Shown here piece by piece: positions 23,742 through 49,715 of a DNA stretch of 58,207 nt. The translations under genes and the position numbers were made by a program. Within the stretch, counting starts at the first letter, position 1. Each line of letters begins with the position of its first letter. The stretch is from Bacilli bacterium (GTDB taxonomy: Bacteria; Bacillota_I; Bacilli_A; RFN20; CAG-826), in contig JAKSVF010000007.1 in assembly GCA_024408235.1 (NCBI GenBank), forward strand, positions 1 through 58,207. Reading direction: 5' to 3'. The notes under the pieces are model-generated. The model was not told where the DNA came from. It searched no databases and saw only the letters and a program-made list of their open reading frames with translations.

Positions 23742-23774
23742 AAATCGACTAGCGATAAAGTGACTAGTCGATTT
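23742..23774. terminator. Bidirectional terminator
   Basis: AAATCGACTAG (23742-23752) pairs with CTAGTCGATTT (23764-23774), with T-rich flanks on both strands. Its right arm contains the stop codon of the minus-strand gene. Confidence 0.85.
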
Positions 23775-26520
23775 TTTTCTTTTTCTTTCTCCGCCAACTG
23801 AGGAGCGTAATCAATATTATTAACACGCCCGTGACGAATATGCCAAGAACACAACCTGATGTATCGATTATTACATCCGAGAACAATCCTGCACGCCCTG
23901 GAACGTGTAACTGGATGAATTCGGTTAATCCTGCAAGGCCGAATCCTTGGATGACTGTCAATGGTGTTGACCAGAACCAGTGTTTACCTCTGAACCACAT
24001 CATATAGGTCAATGCAGAGAATACGCCGAATACGAGGAATGCGCCGAAGTGGCCAAGTGCTTTTCTTACAAACAAGAAGAACTGCTGCAAGTCCTTAATG
24101 ACAGGCTGTTTGTTGATTTTCAGTTTTACAGTAACAACGACTTTCTCTGTTGAATATCCGTCATCAACTGTAGCTGTTAACGTGATTTTACCCGCTTTTA
24201 GTGGGGAAATTGTGCCGTCTCCACCCATTGTTGCGATTTCTTCATCGCTTGTTGTCCATCTGACCGTCTTATAAGTGGTGCCTTCTGCGAAGTTAAGCGT
24301 AACTTTTCCGACATGTCCGTTTTCAATTGAATATAAGCCTGTTTTCTCATCGTATGAAGCTTCAACGCCGGAAACGGAGAACGGATTGTCTTCAACAAGA
24401 GATATTCTGTTCTGGATATTAAGGCGGAACTCCTGAGTTCTATTTGTTATGGCTTCTGTTGCGGTGATTGTTACTTTTCCAATGCCATTGATCCACATCT
24501 GTCCGTTGTTGTTTATCGCAATGACATCTTTATCGCTAGATGAATACACTATATTCGATAGAGTTACACCATCATCAATTGATGTGGTCAACGTTAACTT
24601 ATCGTTGATGTAGCAGTTGTTCTCTAGGTCAGGGTTTATATCAACAACGTCTCCGTTGAATCTGGTTCTCGTCATGGATGCTTCAAACTTTGTTGTTCTG
24701 ACATGCGCGACGTTGACATGTATGGTCTTGCTCATTTCTTCATAGACGTTAGTTCCATAACGTGGGACGACGGTGATTGTGGAACTTCCTTCGCCAACGC
24801 CAGTGACTGAATACTTGCCGCCGTTATCCTTAACGGTGATGATGCTGCTATCGCTGTTTTTTACTTCCCATGACTCAGCAGCTGAGTCGCTATCGATTCT
24901 AATGAAATCGTCATCTGTTTTTCCAACTTCAAACTCAAAGACTTCAGAGAACTTGATGTTCTTAGATGAGTTTTCTTTAGAACCATCAACCATGAAGTCA
25001 TCTAAAGCGAGCATTGTGACTTCTTTTGTGATGCCGGATGCAGTGTGGGTGATGTAGATGGTGAATTCTCCAACGCATTTAGGAGTAAGGCTGGAACCGG
25101 ATATTGTTCCTAATGATGGATCAGCAAGCGAATAGGTTATTGATTTGTTAGGAGGATTATATGAAGCATCACCAGATAAGAATCCTGATACCTTATAGAA
25201 AGATGCAATATTAATGCTCTTTCCTGCGAAAACAACAGGATTTGCCGCGTTTTCAATTAAGAAATCGGTTGTTTTATCGACTTCTGGAGCAGGCTTTGCA
25301 ACTACAGTTACCGTAACGACCTTGCTTATAGAACCGACCTTTACTGTGATGTGGGCGGTGCCTGGGGCAACTGCTGTAATCTTTCCGGCAGTAGATACTT
25401 TAGCAACTGAGTTATTGTCGCTTGAGTATGTTTTTGATGATGCGTTTGCGTAAGCTGGCTTGATATTTGAAACGCTGATTGTTCTAGTTGTTCCTTCGGT
25501 CATTGTGAGCGAAGTGGTGGTTGTGAAATCGGTTACCGCAGGCTGAGCGTTGACCGTGACGTTGATGATTGCTTTAACGTCTGGGTATTTAGTTGAAGTT
25601 GCCGTGATTGTTGCGGTGCCGGCTTTAACGCCCTTCACCGATTTTCCGGAGATTGAGGCCACGCTAGAATCGCTTGTTGATAATGTATAACTTCTATCAG
25701 TTGCGTTTGCTGGGGTGAACGTAAATGAAGGCGTCCAAGATTGGGTTACATATATACTCGTTGAACTTGTCGATGTGTTTATTGCGGTTAAAGGAATTTC
25801 TTCCACCTTATATACTTCAGTCATTACCTTAAGTGAAGATGAGATGGAACCACAATTAACTTTAATTTCGATAATTGAACCATCGCTGGATTCTTTTGGT
25901 GTCAACCTGCCATTGGAACTTAATACAAGATAAGGATTCTCGTCCATTTCATAAGTAACCGTCTTGATCGTTGCATTGTCTGGCGTAATTACATTGGTGA
26001 CGCTATAACTTGATCCGACAGTTAAAGTGTAAACCCCGTCATTTAGTGGGGCGTTAATTGTGGAGGTGATAGACTCAACCTCAATATTCGAAACGTTCAC
26101 CGTCATCGTATCTTTGATTTCAGGGTAATTGATGTTGTTGGCGGTGATAGTCACGCTACCAGCTTTGATGAAGGAGACATATCCGCCAGAGGTAACTGTA
26201 GCAACGCTTGTGTCACTGCTTGTGAAGTCAACTGATTGATATGTTGCGTCTTCCGGAAGAGTGGTGGTTGTCAGAGTCAAAAACTCTCCAACTTTTGCTT
26301 CAGAGATCTTGGAATCAATTTTTAAAGAAGTAGGCAAGACCTCAACCGTCTGGTCTCCACCCATTCCGTTGATGATATCGGCAATCGTGCCACCAACCGC
26401 GTTTGATTTATTTGCAGAGGAAGGCCCGTTTAGACATGATTCGAAAAGTAAAACGCCGCCAGAGACGAGATAAGATACTGTTAAAATCACCTTTGCGACG
26501 AGAAATTTCGTAATTTTCAT
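23764..26520 (-). CDS. Surface protein: Ig-like (BIG2) repeats inside a VanZ-type membrane domain
   Basis: 918 residues. It opens with a hydrophobic helix and the motif CLNGPSSANKSNAVGGTIAD, resembling the first helix and loop of VanZ proteins. Residues about 50-800 hold multiple Ig-like BIG2 domains (VATVTSGGYVSFIKAGSVTI-type units recur). The end returns to VanZ: HFGAFLVFGVFSALTYM, then TEFIQLHVPGRAGLFSDVI, and a final helix with a Lys-rich tail. Thus the Ig array seems to be an insertion in the outer loop between VanZ helices 1 and 2. Likely membrane-anchored and exposed; adhesion or wall sensing is a guess. Confidence 0.75.
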   Translation of the reverse strand: MKITKFLVAKVILTVSYLVSGGVLLFESCLNGPSSANKSNAVGGTIADIINGMGGDQTVEVLPTSLKIDSKISEAKVGEFLTLTTTTLPEDATYQSVDFTSSDTSVATVTSGGYVSFIKAGSVTITANNINYPEIKDTMTVNVSNIEVESITSTINAPLNDGVYTLTVGSSYSVTNVITPDNATIKTVTYEMDENPYLVLSSNGRLTPKESSDGSIIEIKVNCGSISSSLKVMTEVYKVEEIPLTAINTSTSSTSIYVTQSWTPSFTFTPANATDRSYTLSTSDSSVASISGKSVKGVKAGTATITATSTKYPDVKAIINVTVNAQPAVTDFTTTTSLTMTEGTTRTISVSNIKPAYANASSKTYSSDNNSVAKVSTAGKITAVAPGTAHITVKVGSISKVVTVTVVAKPAPEVDKTTDFLIENAANPVVFAGKSINIASFYKVSGFLSGDASYNPPNKSITYSLADPSLGTISGSSLTPKCVGEFTIYITHTASGITKEVTMLALDDFMVDGSKENSSKNIKFSEVFEFEVGKTDDDFIRIDSDSAAESWEVKNSDSSIITVKDNGGKYSVTGVGEGSSTITVVPRYGTNVYEEMSKTIHVNVAHVRTTKFEASMTRTRFNGDVVDINPDLENNCYINDKLTLTTSIDDGVTLSNIVYSSSDKDVIAINNNGQMWINGIGKVTITATEAITNRTQEFRLNIQNRISLVEDNPFSVSGVEASYDEKTGLYSIENGHVGKVTLNFAEGTTYKTVRWTTSDEEIATMGGDGTISPLKAGKITLTATVDDGYSTEKVVVTVKLKINKQPVIKDLQQFFLFVRKALGHFGAFLVFGVFSALTYMMWFRGKHWFWSTPLTVIQGFGLAGLTEFIQLHVPGRAGLFSDVIIDTSGCVLGIFVTGVLIILITLLSWRRKKKKKID

Positions 26521-26779: not shown

Positions 26780-27082
26780 TTGGCATTTTGATAAACGTGT
26801 GTAATATGGCCACATAGCATTGAAGGGAAATAGTACCTTTCGAGTAAGACTTGAGCGAGCCGCTGATGGTGAGAGGGCGGTGTCTGAGGCGATTGGGAAC
26901 GCGTCCTGGAGCTGATTCCTGAAATTAGTAGGGAACTCCGTGTTCGCACGTTATAGCGACTTTGGGTTACTAACTGACCCGGAAAGGCAATTGCCGTGAG
27001 GCTGTTGCAAACTAAGGTGGCACCACGTTATTAAAGTAACGTCCTTAGGCTAAGTAGCTTAGGGACGTTTTGTTTTATAGAA
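26780..27082 (+). promoter_or_regulatory. T-box riboswitch leader, probably arginine-specific
   Basis: Promoter TTGGCA (26780-26785), 16 bases, TAATAT (26802-26807). The leader has AGTA elements at 26832 and 26843, a GAGCGAGCCGCTGATGGTGA stem I apex, and GAA-CGC-G at 26897-26903 where the specifier is expected: CGC, Arg. The T-box AGGTGGCACCACG is at 27015-27027; its TGGC would pair with a tRNA end bearing discriminator G. A terminator (AACGTCC/GGACGTT plus T-run) lies at 27038-27080. Uncharged tRNA-Arg would favour readthrough into the transporter and argGH. The specifier call is inference. Confidence 0.85.
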
Positions 27083-27136: not shown

Positions 27137-27994
27137 ATGAAACTTACAAAGACAGTCACCCTCTCACTTTGCATGATGGGCACATTAGCACTTGGTGCTT
27201 GCGGAAAGCAGACCAAACTCAGCGTTAAATCGATCGCATTAACAGAAGAGGAATACGCTTTCGCTATTCAGAAAGGCTCTTCACTCGTCGCCGAAGTTAA
27301 CAAAGTTATGGCAGAGTTGAAAGCGGACAAATCTGCCGAAGGATTAGATGGCATCATCAACTCATTCTTCGACGGCACAGCAACGTTCGAGTATTCAAAC
27401 CCAAACGTTGCAACTCCTAAAGCAAATGATCCAACCTATTTCGTCGTTGGAACAAATGCTTACTTCCCGCCTTTCGAATATAAAAACGGCGATAAGTTCA
27501 CTGGCATAGATATGAAGATCGCCAGTGTGCTCGCAACTAAATTTAATAAGACTTTATATATCGTTGATACAGAGTTCAGCTCATTAATCCCAGGCGTTAA
27601 GGCTGGAGACTACGATATTGCAATGGCGGGTATGACCGTTACAGAAACTAGAAAAGAACAGGTCGACTTTGCAGACCCATATTACAACTCAGCACAGGTC
27701 ATCACAGTTAAAGAAGGTGACACGACATTTGATGAGTGCAAAACTCCAGAAGATGTTGAAAATATCCTCAAATCCAAAGGAAAAGACTATGTTGTTGGCA
27801 CTCAGAACGGCACAACAGGCTACATGTATACAGCTGGAGATGAAGATTTTGGCTATGATGGTTTCAAGAACCTCACAACAAAAGGATACAAGACAGGCGC
27901 TCTAGCAATGACAGATCTCAAGAACGGCGCAATCAATGCAGTTATCCTTGATGAGCAGCCATCCAAGATGATCGTTGAAGCATTTAATAAATAA
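27137..27994 (+). CDS. Amino-acid ABC transporter binding lipoprotein, apparently circularly permuted
   Basis: 285 residues; AGGAGG ribosome site. Lipobox LGAC (C22). Residues 33-78 (ALTEEEYAFAIQKGSSLVAE, then VNKVMAELKADK) correspond to the segment that ends normal family members. The usual start (FVVGTNAYFPPFEYKN) begins near residue 101, and the protein stops just after LDEQPSKMIVEAFNK, where that tail would normally follow. The order is thus rotated. Both lobes and the ligand signature (MAGMTVTETRKEQVDFADPY) remain. Placed after an Arg T-box and before argGH, so arginine, citrulline or ornithine is the likely cargo. Confidence 0.85.
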   Translation: MKLTKTVTLSLCMMGTLALGACGKQTKLSVKSIALTEEEYAFAIQKGSSLVAEVNKVMAELKADKSAEGLDGIINSFFDGTATFEYSNPNVATPKANDPTYFVVGTNAYFPPFEYKNGDKFTGIDMKIASVLATKFNKTLYIVDTEFSSLIPGVKAGDYDIAMAGMTVTETRKEQVDFADPYYNSAQVITVKEGDTTFDECKTPEDVENILKSKGKDYVVGTQNGTTGYMYTAGDEDFGYDGFKNLTTKGYKTGALAMTDLKNGAINAVILDEQPSKMIVEAFNK

Positions 27995-27996
27995 GT

Positions 27997-28698
27997 ATGT
28001 CCAACTTTGAGATATTCTGGAGTAAGTTTTCTCAAGGTGGCGGCTATGTAGATTACCTTATCGGCCTTCAAAATACCGCAATCATCGCGGTATTGGGCCT
28101 GGTAATCGGATTCATCATTGGTTCTCTTGTCGCCTTAGTAAAATTCATCCCGTCCAACAAGTGGCCGGTAAAAATCCTAAAAGGAATCGGCGACGTCTAT
28201 GTCACAGTGCTCCGCGGAACGCCAATGATAGTTCAGCTTCTTTTGGTGCACTTTGCTTTATTCCCAATGATGGGCTTAGGGTGGGTTAATTCAGTTGCTC
28301 AGGCGGTTATAGTGTTCGGCTTAAATTCCGGCGCTTACATGGCTGAAATCATTAGATCAGGTGTAAATGCAGTGGATCCAGGACAAATGGAAGCCGGAAG
28401 ATGCGTAGGCTTATCCTATTCTGAATCAATGATAAAAATTGTTCTCCCTCAGGCGTTCAAGAACATCGTTCCAACAATCGGCAATGAGTTTATCACCCTT
28501 TTGAAAGAGACATCCGTTGTCTCATTCATTGCGGTTATCGACCTCACAAAGTCAATGGACTCAATCGCCAATTCAACATATGAATATTTCGTTCCATATA
28601 TCTTCCTTGCAATTACGTACCTCATCTTGGTATTAGGAATATCGTATGGAATCAAGTTGCTTGAAAGGAGGTTAAAGAAAAATGAACGACACCAATAA
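27997..28698 (+). CDS. Polar amino-acid ABC transporter permease
   Basis: 233 residues, about five membrane helices. The HisM/GlnP-type coupling loop is present: [20 protein letters not shown] followed by [17 protein letters not shown], which contacts the ATPase. Typical N-terminal [16 protein letters not shown]. Starts 2 bases after the binding protein and overlaps the ATPase by 17 bases. It forms a homodimeric channel for the amino acid delivered by the lipoprotein. Confidence 0.9.
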
Positions 28699-29458
28699 CG
28701 AAGTCATCTTAAGCGTTCAGCACTTAAAGAAGACGTTCAATAAACTTGAAGTTCTTAAGGACGTCAGCATCGATATCTCCAAAGGAGATGTTGTTGCGGT
28801 TATCGGTCCTTCTGGCTGTGGCAAATCAACATTCCTCCGCTGTCTAAACTGTTTAGAAGATCCAGATGATGGAAGCGTCATCATCTTCGACAACGTCAAC
28901 ATCGCTGATGTGAGAATCGACATCAATGAACATAGACGAAACATGGGAATGGTGTTCCAGCACTTTAATCTCTTTGAGAACAAGACGGTTCTTGAAAACA
29001 TTACACTAGGTCCAATCAACGCAGCTTTAAAAAAGAACAAGAAGGCGTCCAAGAAGGCAATTGTTGAAGAAGCTAAAACTAAAGCGATGACCCTCCTTGA
29101 AAGAATCGGTTTAGTAGATAAGGCTAACGCTTACCCATCTACTCTGTCTGGCGGACAGAAACAGAGAATCGCAATCGTTAGAGCCCTTGCAATGGACCCT
29201 AAAGTCATATTATTCGATGAACCAACTTCCGCACTTGATCCAGAGATGGTTGGAGAAGTCCTCCAGCTCATCAAAGAACTCGCCCAATCCGGAATGACAA
29301 TGGTCATCGTCACACACGAAATGGGCTTCGCTAAAGAAGTCGCAAACAAAGTCGTTTTCTTCAATGAGGGCATCATCGAAGAAGAGGGCAACCCAAAAGA
29401 AGTTTTCGCTAACCCTCAAAGCGTTAGATTGAAAGACTTCTTGTCAAAAGTTTTATAA
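28682..29458 (+). CDS. Polar amino-acid ABC transporter ATPase
   Basis: 258 residues. Walker [11 protein letters not shown]-loop [12 protein letters not shown], signature LSGGQKQR, Walker [16 protein letters not shown] and switch His in VTHEMGF. This is the GlnQ/ArtP/HisP class. An AAGGAGG ribosome site lies inside the end of the permease gene, giving coupled translation. It powers the transporter, then argG follows after 19 bases, so import and arginine synthesis share the T-box leader. Confidence 0.92.
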
Positions 29459-29477: not shown

Positions 29478-30704
29478 ATGATAAAAGATAAGAATTCCAT
29501 TAAGAAGGTCGTTTTAGCTTACTCTGGCGGCCTTGATACATCCATCATCATCCCCTGGCTAAAAGAGAACTACAACAACTGTGAAGTCGTTTGCGTCTCC
29601 GGAAATGTAGGTCAAGGAACGGAGTTAGATGGCCTAGAAGAAAAAGCCATAAAGACAGGAGCGTCAAAACTATACATCGAAGATTTAACCGATGAATTCG
29701 TCGATGATTATGTTATTCCAACCATGAAAGCAGGGGCAAAATACGAGGAATATCTCCTTGGAACATCATTTGCTAGACCTGTAATCGGCAAGAGAATTGC
29801 GGAGATTGCCCTAAAAGAAGGAGCGGATGCAATATGCCATGGCTGCACTGGCAAAGGCAATGACCAGGTAAGATTTGAACTCGCCATTAAGTCAGTTGCC
29901 CCAGACATGAAAATCATCGCTCCATGGAGAGAATGGTCAATCAAGTCTAGAGAAGAGGAGATTGAATATGCAGAAGCTCATAACATCCCATTAAAAATCA
30001 ACCGTGAGACAAACTATTCCAAAGACAAGAATCTTTGGCACTTGTCACACGAGGGACTTGACCTTGAAGATCCAGGATCTGAACCACAGTACGAGAAAGA
30101 AGGGTTCCTTGAATTGGGCGTCTCTCCAATCCAGGCCCCAGACACCCCAACATATATCACAATCGAGTTCGATAAAGGCACACCAATCGCATTCAACGGG
30201 ATGAAGATGTCCTCAAAAGAAATCATCTATGCCCTAAATAAAGTTGGCGGAGAAAACGGCATCGGATTACTCGACATCGTTGAGAATAGACTTGTCGGCA
30301 TGAAGTCCCGTGGCGTTTATGAAACCCCGGGTGGAGAGATCCTTTATTACGCTCACGATTATTTAGAAACAATCACCCTTGATAAGATGACGATGCATGA
30401 GAAGGCAAAACTATCAATCACCTTTGGTGAACTCGTATATAACGGCCAGTGGTTCACGCCTCTTAGAGAGGCCTTAAGCGCATTTGTAGATAAGACTCAA
30501 GAAGCGGTTACAGGTCTCGTTAAACTTAAACTCTACAAAGGCAATATCATCAAAGCTGGAGTCTGGTCGCCAAATTCTTTATACAGCGAAGAAATCGCGA
30601 CATTCTCAGAAGACCATGTCTACAATCAAGCCGACTCAGAAGGATTCATCAACCTTTTTGGCTTGCCAATTCAAGTGGCCGCAATGTTGAAGAAGAATAA
30701 ATAG
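29478..30704 (+). CDS. argG: Argininosuccinate synthase
   Basis: 408 residues, full length. The P-loop [18 protein letters not shown] of the N-type PP-ATPases is present, with [25 protein letters not shown] (citrulline and aspartate site) and the [19 protein letters not shown] block. It joins citrulline and aspartate with ATP to give argininosuccinate. Directly followed by argH and preceded by the transporter, with no other arg genes in view. Making arginine from imported citrulline is an attractive reading, but it is inference. Confidence 0.95.
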
Positions 30705-30706
30705 TT

Positions 30707-32080
30707 ATGGAAAAGCTTTGGAGCGGAAGAACTAAAGGAGCAACATCCGAAATAGCGGACTCTTTCAACTCGTCCATCACATTTGATTCCCGGCTTTATA
30801 GTGAGGATATAGAAGGCTCAATCGCCCACGCGATGATGCTCGCTCACCAGGGAATCATCTCCGAGGAAGAGAAAGAAGAAATTGTTAACGGACTCATTTC
30901 AATAAAAGATGACATCTTTACCAACAGCATCAAGATTGATATGAGCGCGGAAGACATCCACATGTTCATCGAAAGCGAGCTCACTAAGAGAATCGGGGAG
31001 GCGGGAAAGAAACTTCACACCGCCAGATCGAGAAACGACCAGGTGGCTTTAGATACAAGGCTTCATCTGCTTAAGAAGATAAAACTAATAAAGCATAGCC
31101 TTAAGAAACTCATCAAATCTCTTGTAAAAAAGGCGGAAAATCACGTTTCAACGATCATGCCTGGCTACACCCACCTACAAAGAGCCCAACCAATATCATT
31201 TGCTCACTTGCTTCTTGCATATGTTGCAATGCTAGATAGGGACATTGATAGACTGGATGATTTAAAGAAGAGAGTAGGGGTATCTCCTATTGGAGCGTGT
31301 GCTCTGGCAGGAACAACTTATGACACCGATAGATTCTATGAGGCCGAACTTTTAGGACTCGACAAAGTGAGTGTTAACTCGCTTGATGCCGTATCTGACC
31401 GTGACTTTGTCGTCGAGTTCCTTGCTGACGCCTCTCTCATCATGATGCATCTTTCAAGAATGTCAGAGGAGTTCATCATCTACTCATCTTGGGAATTCAA
31501 GTTCATTGAGTTCTCGGATGAATTCACAACCGGTTCATCAATAATGCCTCAAAAGAAGAATTCAGATATGGCTGAACTCATAAGAGGAAAGACCGGAAGA
31601 GTGTATGGAGATTTAATCTCTCTCCTCGTGACCTTAAAAGGTCTCCCACTTGCTTATAACAAAGATATGCAAGAGGACAAGGAAGCTATGTTTGACGCGA
31701 TTGACACTCTAGAAGCCTGTTTAAAGGTTATGACACCTATGATTGATACGATGAAGGTATTCGAAGATAACATGCTTCTAGCGGCCCAAAAAGGGTTCAT
31801 CAACGCAACGGATTTAGCGGACTATCTCGTCTCAAAAGGCCTACCATTTAGAGAAGCTTATAAAGTCTCAGGGTCTCTTGTCGGTGACTGCATTAAGAAC
31901 AACACGATTCTTGAGAAGATGAATCTAACAGAATTCAAAGCGTTCTCACCACTAATAGAGGATGATGTTTATGAAGCGATTTCATTAACAACATGTCTAA
32001 ACAAGAGAAATTCTTATGGTGGCACATCGCCAAAGAACGTCATGATGCAGATTGAGTTATATAAAAAGAGATATAAGTAG
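30707..32080 (+). CDS. argH: Argininosuccinate lyase
   Basis: 457 residues, full length. The fumarase/aspartase signature GSSIMPQKKN is intact, as are TARSRNDQVALDTRL, the HLQRAQP catalytic His region and the N-terminal LWSGRTKG. It splits argininosuccinate into arginine and fumarate. Starts 2 bases after the argG stop, with no separate ribosome site, so translation is coupled. Last gene of the T-box operon; an intrinsic terminator follows. Confidence 0.95.
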   Translation: MEKLWSGRTKGATSEIADSFNSSITFDSRLYSEDIEGSIAHAMMLAHQGIISEEEKEEIVNGLISIKDDIFTNSIKIDMSAEDIHMFIESELTKRIGEAGKKLHTARSRNDQVALDTRLHLLKKIKLIKHSLKKLIKSLVKKAENHVSTIMPGYTHLQRAQPISFAHLLLAYVAMLDRDIDRLDDLKKRVGVSPIGACALAGTTYDTDRFYEAELLGLDKVSVNSLDAVSDRDFVVEFLADASLIMMHLSRMSEEFIIYSSWEFKFIEFSDEFTTGSSIMPQKKNSDMAELIRGKTGRVYGDLISLLVTLKGLPLAYNKDMQEDKEAMFDAIDTLEACLKVMTPMIDTMKVFEDNMLLAAQKGFINATDLADYLVSKGLPFREAYKVSGSLVGDCIKNNTILEKMNLTEFKAFSPLIEDDVYEAISLTTCLNKRNSYGGTSPKNVMMQIELYKKRYK

Positions 32081-49515: not shown

Positions 49516-49610
49516 GCAAAAAGTTGAATATGACACCATAAAAATGATACTTTTGGGTGATAAATCAACAATCATTTGACTTGTAATATTTGCCTAGAAA
49601 ACTATACTTT

Positions 49611-49715
49611 ACTCATCGGGAATGATGTCTCCCGGAGCAATGCTCGAACCGCCTTATTAAGCTGATGACGTCTATGCCTCTTTTTTGGCGTAGATTTCAT
49701 GGCTTTATTTTTTTG
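49611..49715 (+). promoter_or_regulatory. Fluoride riboswitch (crcB motif)
   Basis: Stem GGGA/TCCC (49618-49621, 49630-49633) closes loop ATGATGTC; its GATGTC pairs with GACGTC (49667-49672) to form the pseudoknot. AACCGCC and GCTGATGAC match the conserved crcB core. A small GAGC-AAT-GCTC hairpin is inserted. TCTATGCC (49671-49678) can instead pair with GGCGTAGA (49687-49694), a terminator-like switch. Promoter: TTGTAA (49581-49586), TATACT (49603-49608). Confidence 0.85.

Follow-up and report, generated by a model that had tools for sequence, protein, structure and literature searches.

A circularly permuted SBP_bac_3 lipoprotein, probably the receptor of an arginine ABC importer, and its rotated relatives

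We describe a gene that very probably encodes a naturally circularly permuted SBP_bac_3 (type II, amino-acid) lipoprotein, the receptor of an ABC importer most likely for arginine. The gene lies in the window, by which we mean the whole stretch of 58,207 nucleotides that was analyzed, and its features are collected in Table 1. Canonical members of the family run in the order A-C-B, from lobe 1 (piece A) through lobe 2 (piece C) to a terminal tail (piece B). In the window protein the order is B-A-C, with the old ends joined by a linker of ~15 residues and the new ends located where the final helix of lobe 2 gives way to the following strand. The open reading frame starts 7 bases downstream of TAAGGAGG, a ribosome-binding site. 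The lipobox cysteine did not vary in an alignment of 36 tail-first proteins, and a lipobox was present in all 16 proteins of the window clade.

Table 1. Features of the permuted gene and its operon, in window coordinates
Feature	Positions	Strand	Length or basis
SBP_bac_3 lipoprotein gene, circularly permuted: tail (B), then lobe 1 (A), then lobe 2 (C)	27137..27994	+	285 aa
Signal peptide, ending in lipobox LGAC; Cys22 presumed lipid anchor	27137..27202	+	sequence
Piece B, residues 26-84: canonical terminal segment, here leading	27212..27388	+	profile B, E 1e-20
Linker, residues 85-99, joining former C- and N-terminal ends	27389..27433	+	stretch separating piece B from piece A
Piece A, residues 100-200: lobe 1, contains invariant R172	27434..27736	+	profile A, E 3e-45
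Piece C, residues 212-285: lobe 2, contains invariant D272	27770..27991	+	profile C, E 3e-36
T-box leader upstream of operon; probable specifier CGC (arginine)	26811..27049	+	Rfam RF00230, 112.2 bits, E 4.9e-24
Amino-acid ABC transporter permease	27997..28698	+	PF00528, E 6.5e-22
ABC transporter ATPase	28682..29458	+	PF00005, E 2.1e-35
Argininosuccinate synthase (argG)	29478..30704	+	PF20979, PF00764
Argininosuccinate lyase (argH)	30707..32080	+	PF00206, PF14698

The translated gene carries LTEEEYAFAIQKG at residues 35-47 and VNKVMAELKAD at residues 54-64, both ahead of the usual first strand of the family, YFVVGTNAYFPPFEY (residues 101-115); lobe 1 begins near residue 100. The protein terminates in LDEQPSKMIVEAFNK, and the end of piece C is the end of the protein, at the point where canonical proteins, by comparison with the relative L052, continue into the tail. 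Pfam profile PF00497 scored 98.1 bits (cut-off, 26.4), with a match limited to residues 103-265. NCBIfam profile TIGR01096 was covered only at positions 15-181 of 250 by the window protein, compared with 3-250 of 250 by canonical L052. In phmmer searches of PDB sequences, the tail matched separately and out of order, at the C-terminal end of the amino-acid binding proteins 4zv1, 6svf and 4prs. A single stretch of the tandem-SBD protein 6h30 covered residues 26-278 of the window protein, as expected where one domain's tail comes directly ahead of another domain's head.

Every rotation of the mature window protein was scored against a profile of 19 canonical relatives from which L052 was excluded. 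As written, the protein scored 168.2 bits over profile positions 3-167 of 219. The best in silico rotations, cut just ahead of residue ~100, matched positions 3-217 of 219, end to end, with 201.8 bits, a gain of 33.6 bits. Canonical L052 and L211 scored highest unrotated in the same scan, and the five rotated relatives tried gained 55 to 143 bits upon rotation. Separate profiles of pieces A (100-200), C (212-285) and B (26-84), built to read the order of the pieces, gave B-A-C for the window protein. Judged by sequence comparison, the protein is a circular permutant, in that its homology runs from end to end after one rotation. Because its order is B-A-C instead of A-C-B, it is filed as a permuted variant of SBP_bac_3 and not as a standard member. 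The tail-first order claimed for this gene in the preliminary description is thus confirmed by the open reading frame, phmmer, the rotation scan and 84 other tail-first proteins. Its claim of a circular permutation is supported by the gain on rotation, by the canonical order of L052 and by the shared couplings described below; the profile alignment to the family, a check set beforehand, proved non-collinear by phmmer, TIGR01096 and the rotation scan.

The canonical-order protein L052 was 56% identical to the window protein over the two lobes and 46% identical in the tail, and both tails contain FFDGTATF. In the L052 chain, residues matching the window protein's C terminus run straight into those matching its N terminus. 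L052 fell inside the window clade with a support of 99 (starred) in one tree and 100/99 (starred) in the 56-row tree described below, and it was nearest to window-clade members in both a lobe-1-only tree and a lobe-2-plus-tail tree.

An AlphaFold2 model of the window protein, run with 36 tail-first proteins, had a mean pLDDT of 93.2 and a pTM of 0.82, with tail blocks at 94-98. The model displayed the two-lobed type II fold and was aligned by VIA-align with 5t0w_A (Z 17.5, rmsd 1.9, 175 aligned). Most VIA-align rows covered model residues 97-285 and halted ~50 residues short of the end of the matched chain, as expected if those residues sit elsewhere in the chain. Piece B was modeled as strands 28-31 and 38-44 followed by helices 50-63 and 70-78, a strand-strand-helix-helix arrangement over residues 28-78 that may correspond to the usual C-terminal tail. 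Twenty-six columns were invariant across the 36 divergent tail-first proteins, and R172 and D272 were invariant in all 36. We presume that R172 corresponds to the carboxylate-binding arginine and D272 to the amino-binding aspartate of GlnH; their invariance would be compatible with an amino-acid ligand. The rotated protein would be expected to fold and bind like its relatives.

Couplings were computed separately in the 85 B-A-C proteins and in 79 others, with effective sequence numbers of only 63 and 68. Of the top 10 tail-lobe 1 couplings, 6 fell within 3 columns of a top-10 pair of the other set, against a null mean of 0.67 (p 5e-4), in a proximity test that was chosen after the weak global rank correlation (rho 0.055, null maximum 0.043) had been seen. 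The pair E60-K135 ranked second in both sets, and residues 51-61 coupled with residues 127-135 in both. Tail-lobe 2 couplings showed no sharing between the rotated and unrotated sets, and therefore only the tail-lobe 1 contact is supported. These covariation data support the view that the moved tail probably keeps its place on lobe 1.

Rotated homologues, for which the preliminary description had proposed a search in related genomes, were present. All three cyclic orders, B-A-C, C-B-A and canonical A-C-B, occurred among relatives. Distinct single-unit proteins numbered 85 B-A-C (the window protein and 84 others), 59 C-B-A and 20 A-C-B; the loci were picked because they resembled the window, chiefly its B+A stretch, so that the counts favor rotated forms and give no estimate of frequency, and they leave out 5 multi-unit and 36 partial proteins. 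The window order was shared by 37 of 46 loci from named genome contigs, ranging from gut assemblies of Bacilli and Clostridia to Coprococcus catus; the same-genus L002 is also among the B-A-C carriers. By record titles, rotated forms are carried by the cultured Coprococcus catus and Lachnospira multipara. C-B-A forms included a stand-alone protein (L076) and proteins fused to a permease (L077-L080, three of them titled Lachnospira), and 28 of the 59 C-B-A proteins exceeded 400 aa and were permease fusions. Canonical C-to-B joins had almost no linker; rotated B-to-A joins had 9-33 residues. One locus (L148, - strand, ORFs 260-1130 and 1176-2043 of the reverse complement) held neighboring SBP genes of B-A-C and C-B-A order, and one B-A-C protein of 532 aa (L156, 237-1833) was fused to a permease, the sole such fusion among the 85.

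A less biased census took PF00497 matches in 40 genomes of Lachnospiraceae, the family of C. catus, and then classified the loci by order. Rotated genes were verified in at least 17 of the 40 genomes, or at least 16 without the weak L284, the only one in its genome (G271), on the basis of 40 further places and 30 loci classified among the matches listed, with most full-profile matches assumed canonical unseen and with one genome (G230) picked as the center because it carries a rotated gene. Among 37 genomes of the genus to which the window belongs, 6 gave a match; the close rotated form was found only in the window's genome itself (G000) and in G011, and G002 and G010 carried canonical-order proteins (L004 and L003). 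The same-genus rotated homologue (L002/L036) had extra, poorly matching residues within its tail piece, perhaps from a frameshift or an assembly fault.

The number of order changes was examined in trees of homologous columns. For approximately unbiased (AU) tests, a set of 56 rows was used, from which the long-branch rows L066, L129 and L219_822 had been dropped and others thinned. Order changed at least 5 times in this tree, and a single clade was rejected both for B-A-C (p 1e-4) and for C-B-A (p 2e-62). With C-B-A left free, a single B-A-C clade against A-C-B was still rejected (p 0.008). A 108-row tree, with canonical and divergent rotated proteins added, needed at least 10 order changes, and its starred branches forced no fewer than 4 for each of the two rotated orders. 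In that tree, L255, which shares its cut site with the window protein, was an isolated B-A-C protein beside canonical L160 (97, starred), and the C-B-A proteins L270, L274, L278, L281 and L071 grouped with canonical L259 and L272 (98, starred). The window clade and the other, larger clade of B-A-C proteins may reflect one rotation or two: the AU p of 0.008 speaks against one origin, yet the 108-row tree joined them, together with six C-B-A proteins and L052, at 94 (not starred). A tree of the ATPases also rejected single clades (p 0.0013 and 1.5e-6); it was poorly resolved and scattered the window clade, and therefore parts of the operon may have been exchanged. Collectively, the trees and AU tests indicate repeated rotation in the wider SBP_bac_3 family.

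Rotation could have begun with a tandem duplication from which the outer pieces were later lost. Proteins with two or three A-C-B units in register (L187, L188 and L174) and out-of-register tandem forms (L012 and L018) were both found, which is what permutation by duplication would leave. L174, a 973-aa ORF on the - strand, has three tandem canonical binding domains, and L012, an 823-aa ORF on the - strand, reads C-B-A-C-B-A and then a permease. B-A-C proteins have their new ends behind the final helix of lobe 2, and C-B-A proteins have theirs near the crossing from lobe 1 to lobe 2. With close canonical kin, tandem forms and cultured carriers at hand, permutation by duplication is directly testable.

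Other explanations of the window gene were weighed. One might suspect an unrelated N-terminal extension with a chance resemblance to the family tail, on a protein with a truncated C terminus, since Pfam found no SBP family in residues 1-90 alone (only DUF3502, at E 0.16). However, rotation both raises the score and completes the profile, the tail profile matches at E 1e-20, FFDGTATF recurs in the L052 tail, and 84 other proteins have the same order, with shared couplings; on the rotation scan and L052, this very improbable explanation was rejected. The genome is a draft of 72 contigs, and an assembly or frameshift artefact was therefore considered, but the order recurs in 85 distinct proteins across many assemblies. 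With the open frame, the lipobox in 16 of 16 window-clade proteins and conserved positions throughout, an artefact is extremely improbable, and the independent genomes led us to reject it.

A chimera, in which the leading tail came from another binding-protein gene and not from the protein's own tail, would have donors at hand in the neighboring SBP gene pairs (L148 and L219) and the tandem fusions (L174, L187 and L188). It is nonetheless improbable, as the lobe-2-plus-tail tree and the lobe-1-only tree both place the window protein with the same relatives and L052, in a comparison that does not separate out the 57 tail columns. The disturbed tail of the G011/L036 copy would suit a protein that is rotated yet no longer a transporter receptor, being a decaying or neofunctionalised copy. 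Against this quite improbable reading stand the invariant R172 and D272, the 26 invariant columns over 36 divergent proteins, the adjacent permease and ATPase in 80 of 85 B-A-C loci, and the amino-acid gene context. A rotated and functional receptor remains the preferred reading.

Consistent with a receptor role, a permease adjoined the SBP gene in 81 of the 85 B-A-C loci, and permease and ATPase followed in 80. In the window, the operon of T-box, SBP, permease, ATPase, argG and argH makes arginine uptake likely. The CGC specifier is our own reading of the printed alignment, for which a literature search gave no confirmation. No T-box above the gathering score was found in any of 20 homologous loci searched, and therefore the arginine assignment is local to the window.

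Which half of the binding protein is tethered to the membrane may change on rotation. For canonical lipoproteins, the anchor would lead into lobe 1. In the window protein the lipid anchor has probably moved from lobe 1 to lobe 2, since the strand that begins six residues after Cys22 is one that we assign to lobe 2 by the lobe limits of GlnH; rotation has probably left both hinge crossings in place. When a C-B-A protein is fused to the permease, its N-terminal anchor would lead into lobe 2 and its lobe 1 into the permease. A model of one such fusion, L077, was of moderate quality (pLDDT 79.2, pTM 0.61); its permease part matched 4yms_C (Z 16.2, rmsd 3.0, 166 aligned), and its SBD aligned in sequence order to OpuAC 2b4l (Z 12.9, rmsd 4.9, 212 residues). 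It is possible, if doubtful, that SBP_bac_3 of gut Firmicutes is a hot spot of recurrent, adaptive re-cutting at two favored seams, after the last lobe 2 helix and at the lobe 1 to lobe 2 crossing, which changes the lobe tied to membrane or permease. If so, fused C-B-A proteins would keep one covalent hinge crossing, and the permease could be acted on directly when the lobes close. Any benefit that rotation may bring is one that we infer; how the position of the anchor affects a Venus-flytrap receptor can be tested directly.

The natural circular permutations known tend to be single, ancient pairs that share little sequence identity. Relative to known permuted binding proteins, the recurrence, close canonical kin and permease-fused rotated forms described here are notable. 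GlnH, ArtJ and ArgT (PF00497; TIGR01096) share family and operon neighbors with the window protein, which matches them end to end once rotated, but their order is A-C-B and not B-A-C. According to the CPSARST report (PMC2395249), Bacillus subtilis OpuAC (2b4l) and ProX-like glycine-betaine binding proteins form a natural circular permutation found by that program, with less than 24% identity. This is likewise a natural permutation between type II binding proteins; however, it concerns another ligand family, and it is the C-B-A order that aligns to OpuAC, whereas the window order is B-A-C. Tp0684 (TpMglB-2) of Treponema pallidum is reported (PMC4990184) to be a natural permuted binding lipoprotein of 'Cluster Bc' with gut Gram-positive relatives, for which the authors propose membrane tethering as a reason for permutation. 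Unlike the window protein, Tp0684 is described there as a sugar-binding type I fold that has a fourth crossing and whose permutation falls within the N lobe. In the open-access literature searched, no report of natural permutation in SBP_bac_3 was found; permutation words were sought in Wolters 2010 (PMC2861598) and were absent, and one passage of CIRPIN (PMC12667903) contains no transporter binding protein. GlnPQ-type importers, like L077-like proteins, have SBDs fused to the permease, but in 28 of the 59 C-B-A proteins the fused SBD is rotated, with lobe 1 leading into the permease.

Profile-based annotation covers just part of rotated receptors. PF00497.25 has 132 positions and its canonical matches span ~219 residues, so that it seems to describe lobe 1 interrupted by an inserted lobe 2. 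A PF00497.25 match ending near position 95-98 often signals C-B-A order, with canonical L265 and L268 as exceptions. Elsewhere in the window, positions 23764-26520 (- strand) encode a protein of 918 aa whose Big_2 Ig-like repeats are flanked on the N-terminal side by a hydrophobic helix and on the C-terminal side by a VanZ stretch; this VanZ stretch matches profile positions 55-123 of 126, and the VanZ domain is perhaps interrupted by the Ig-like repeats. A fluoride riboswitch is found at window positions 49609-49681.
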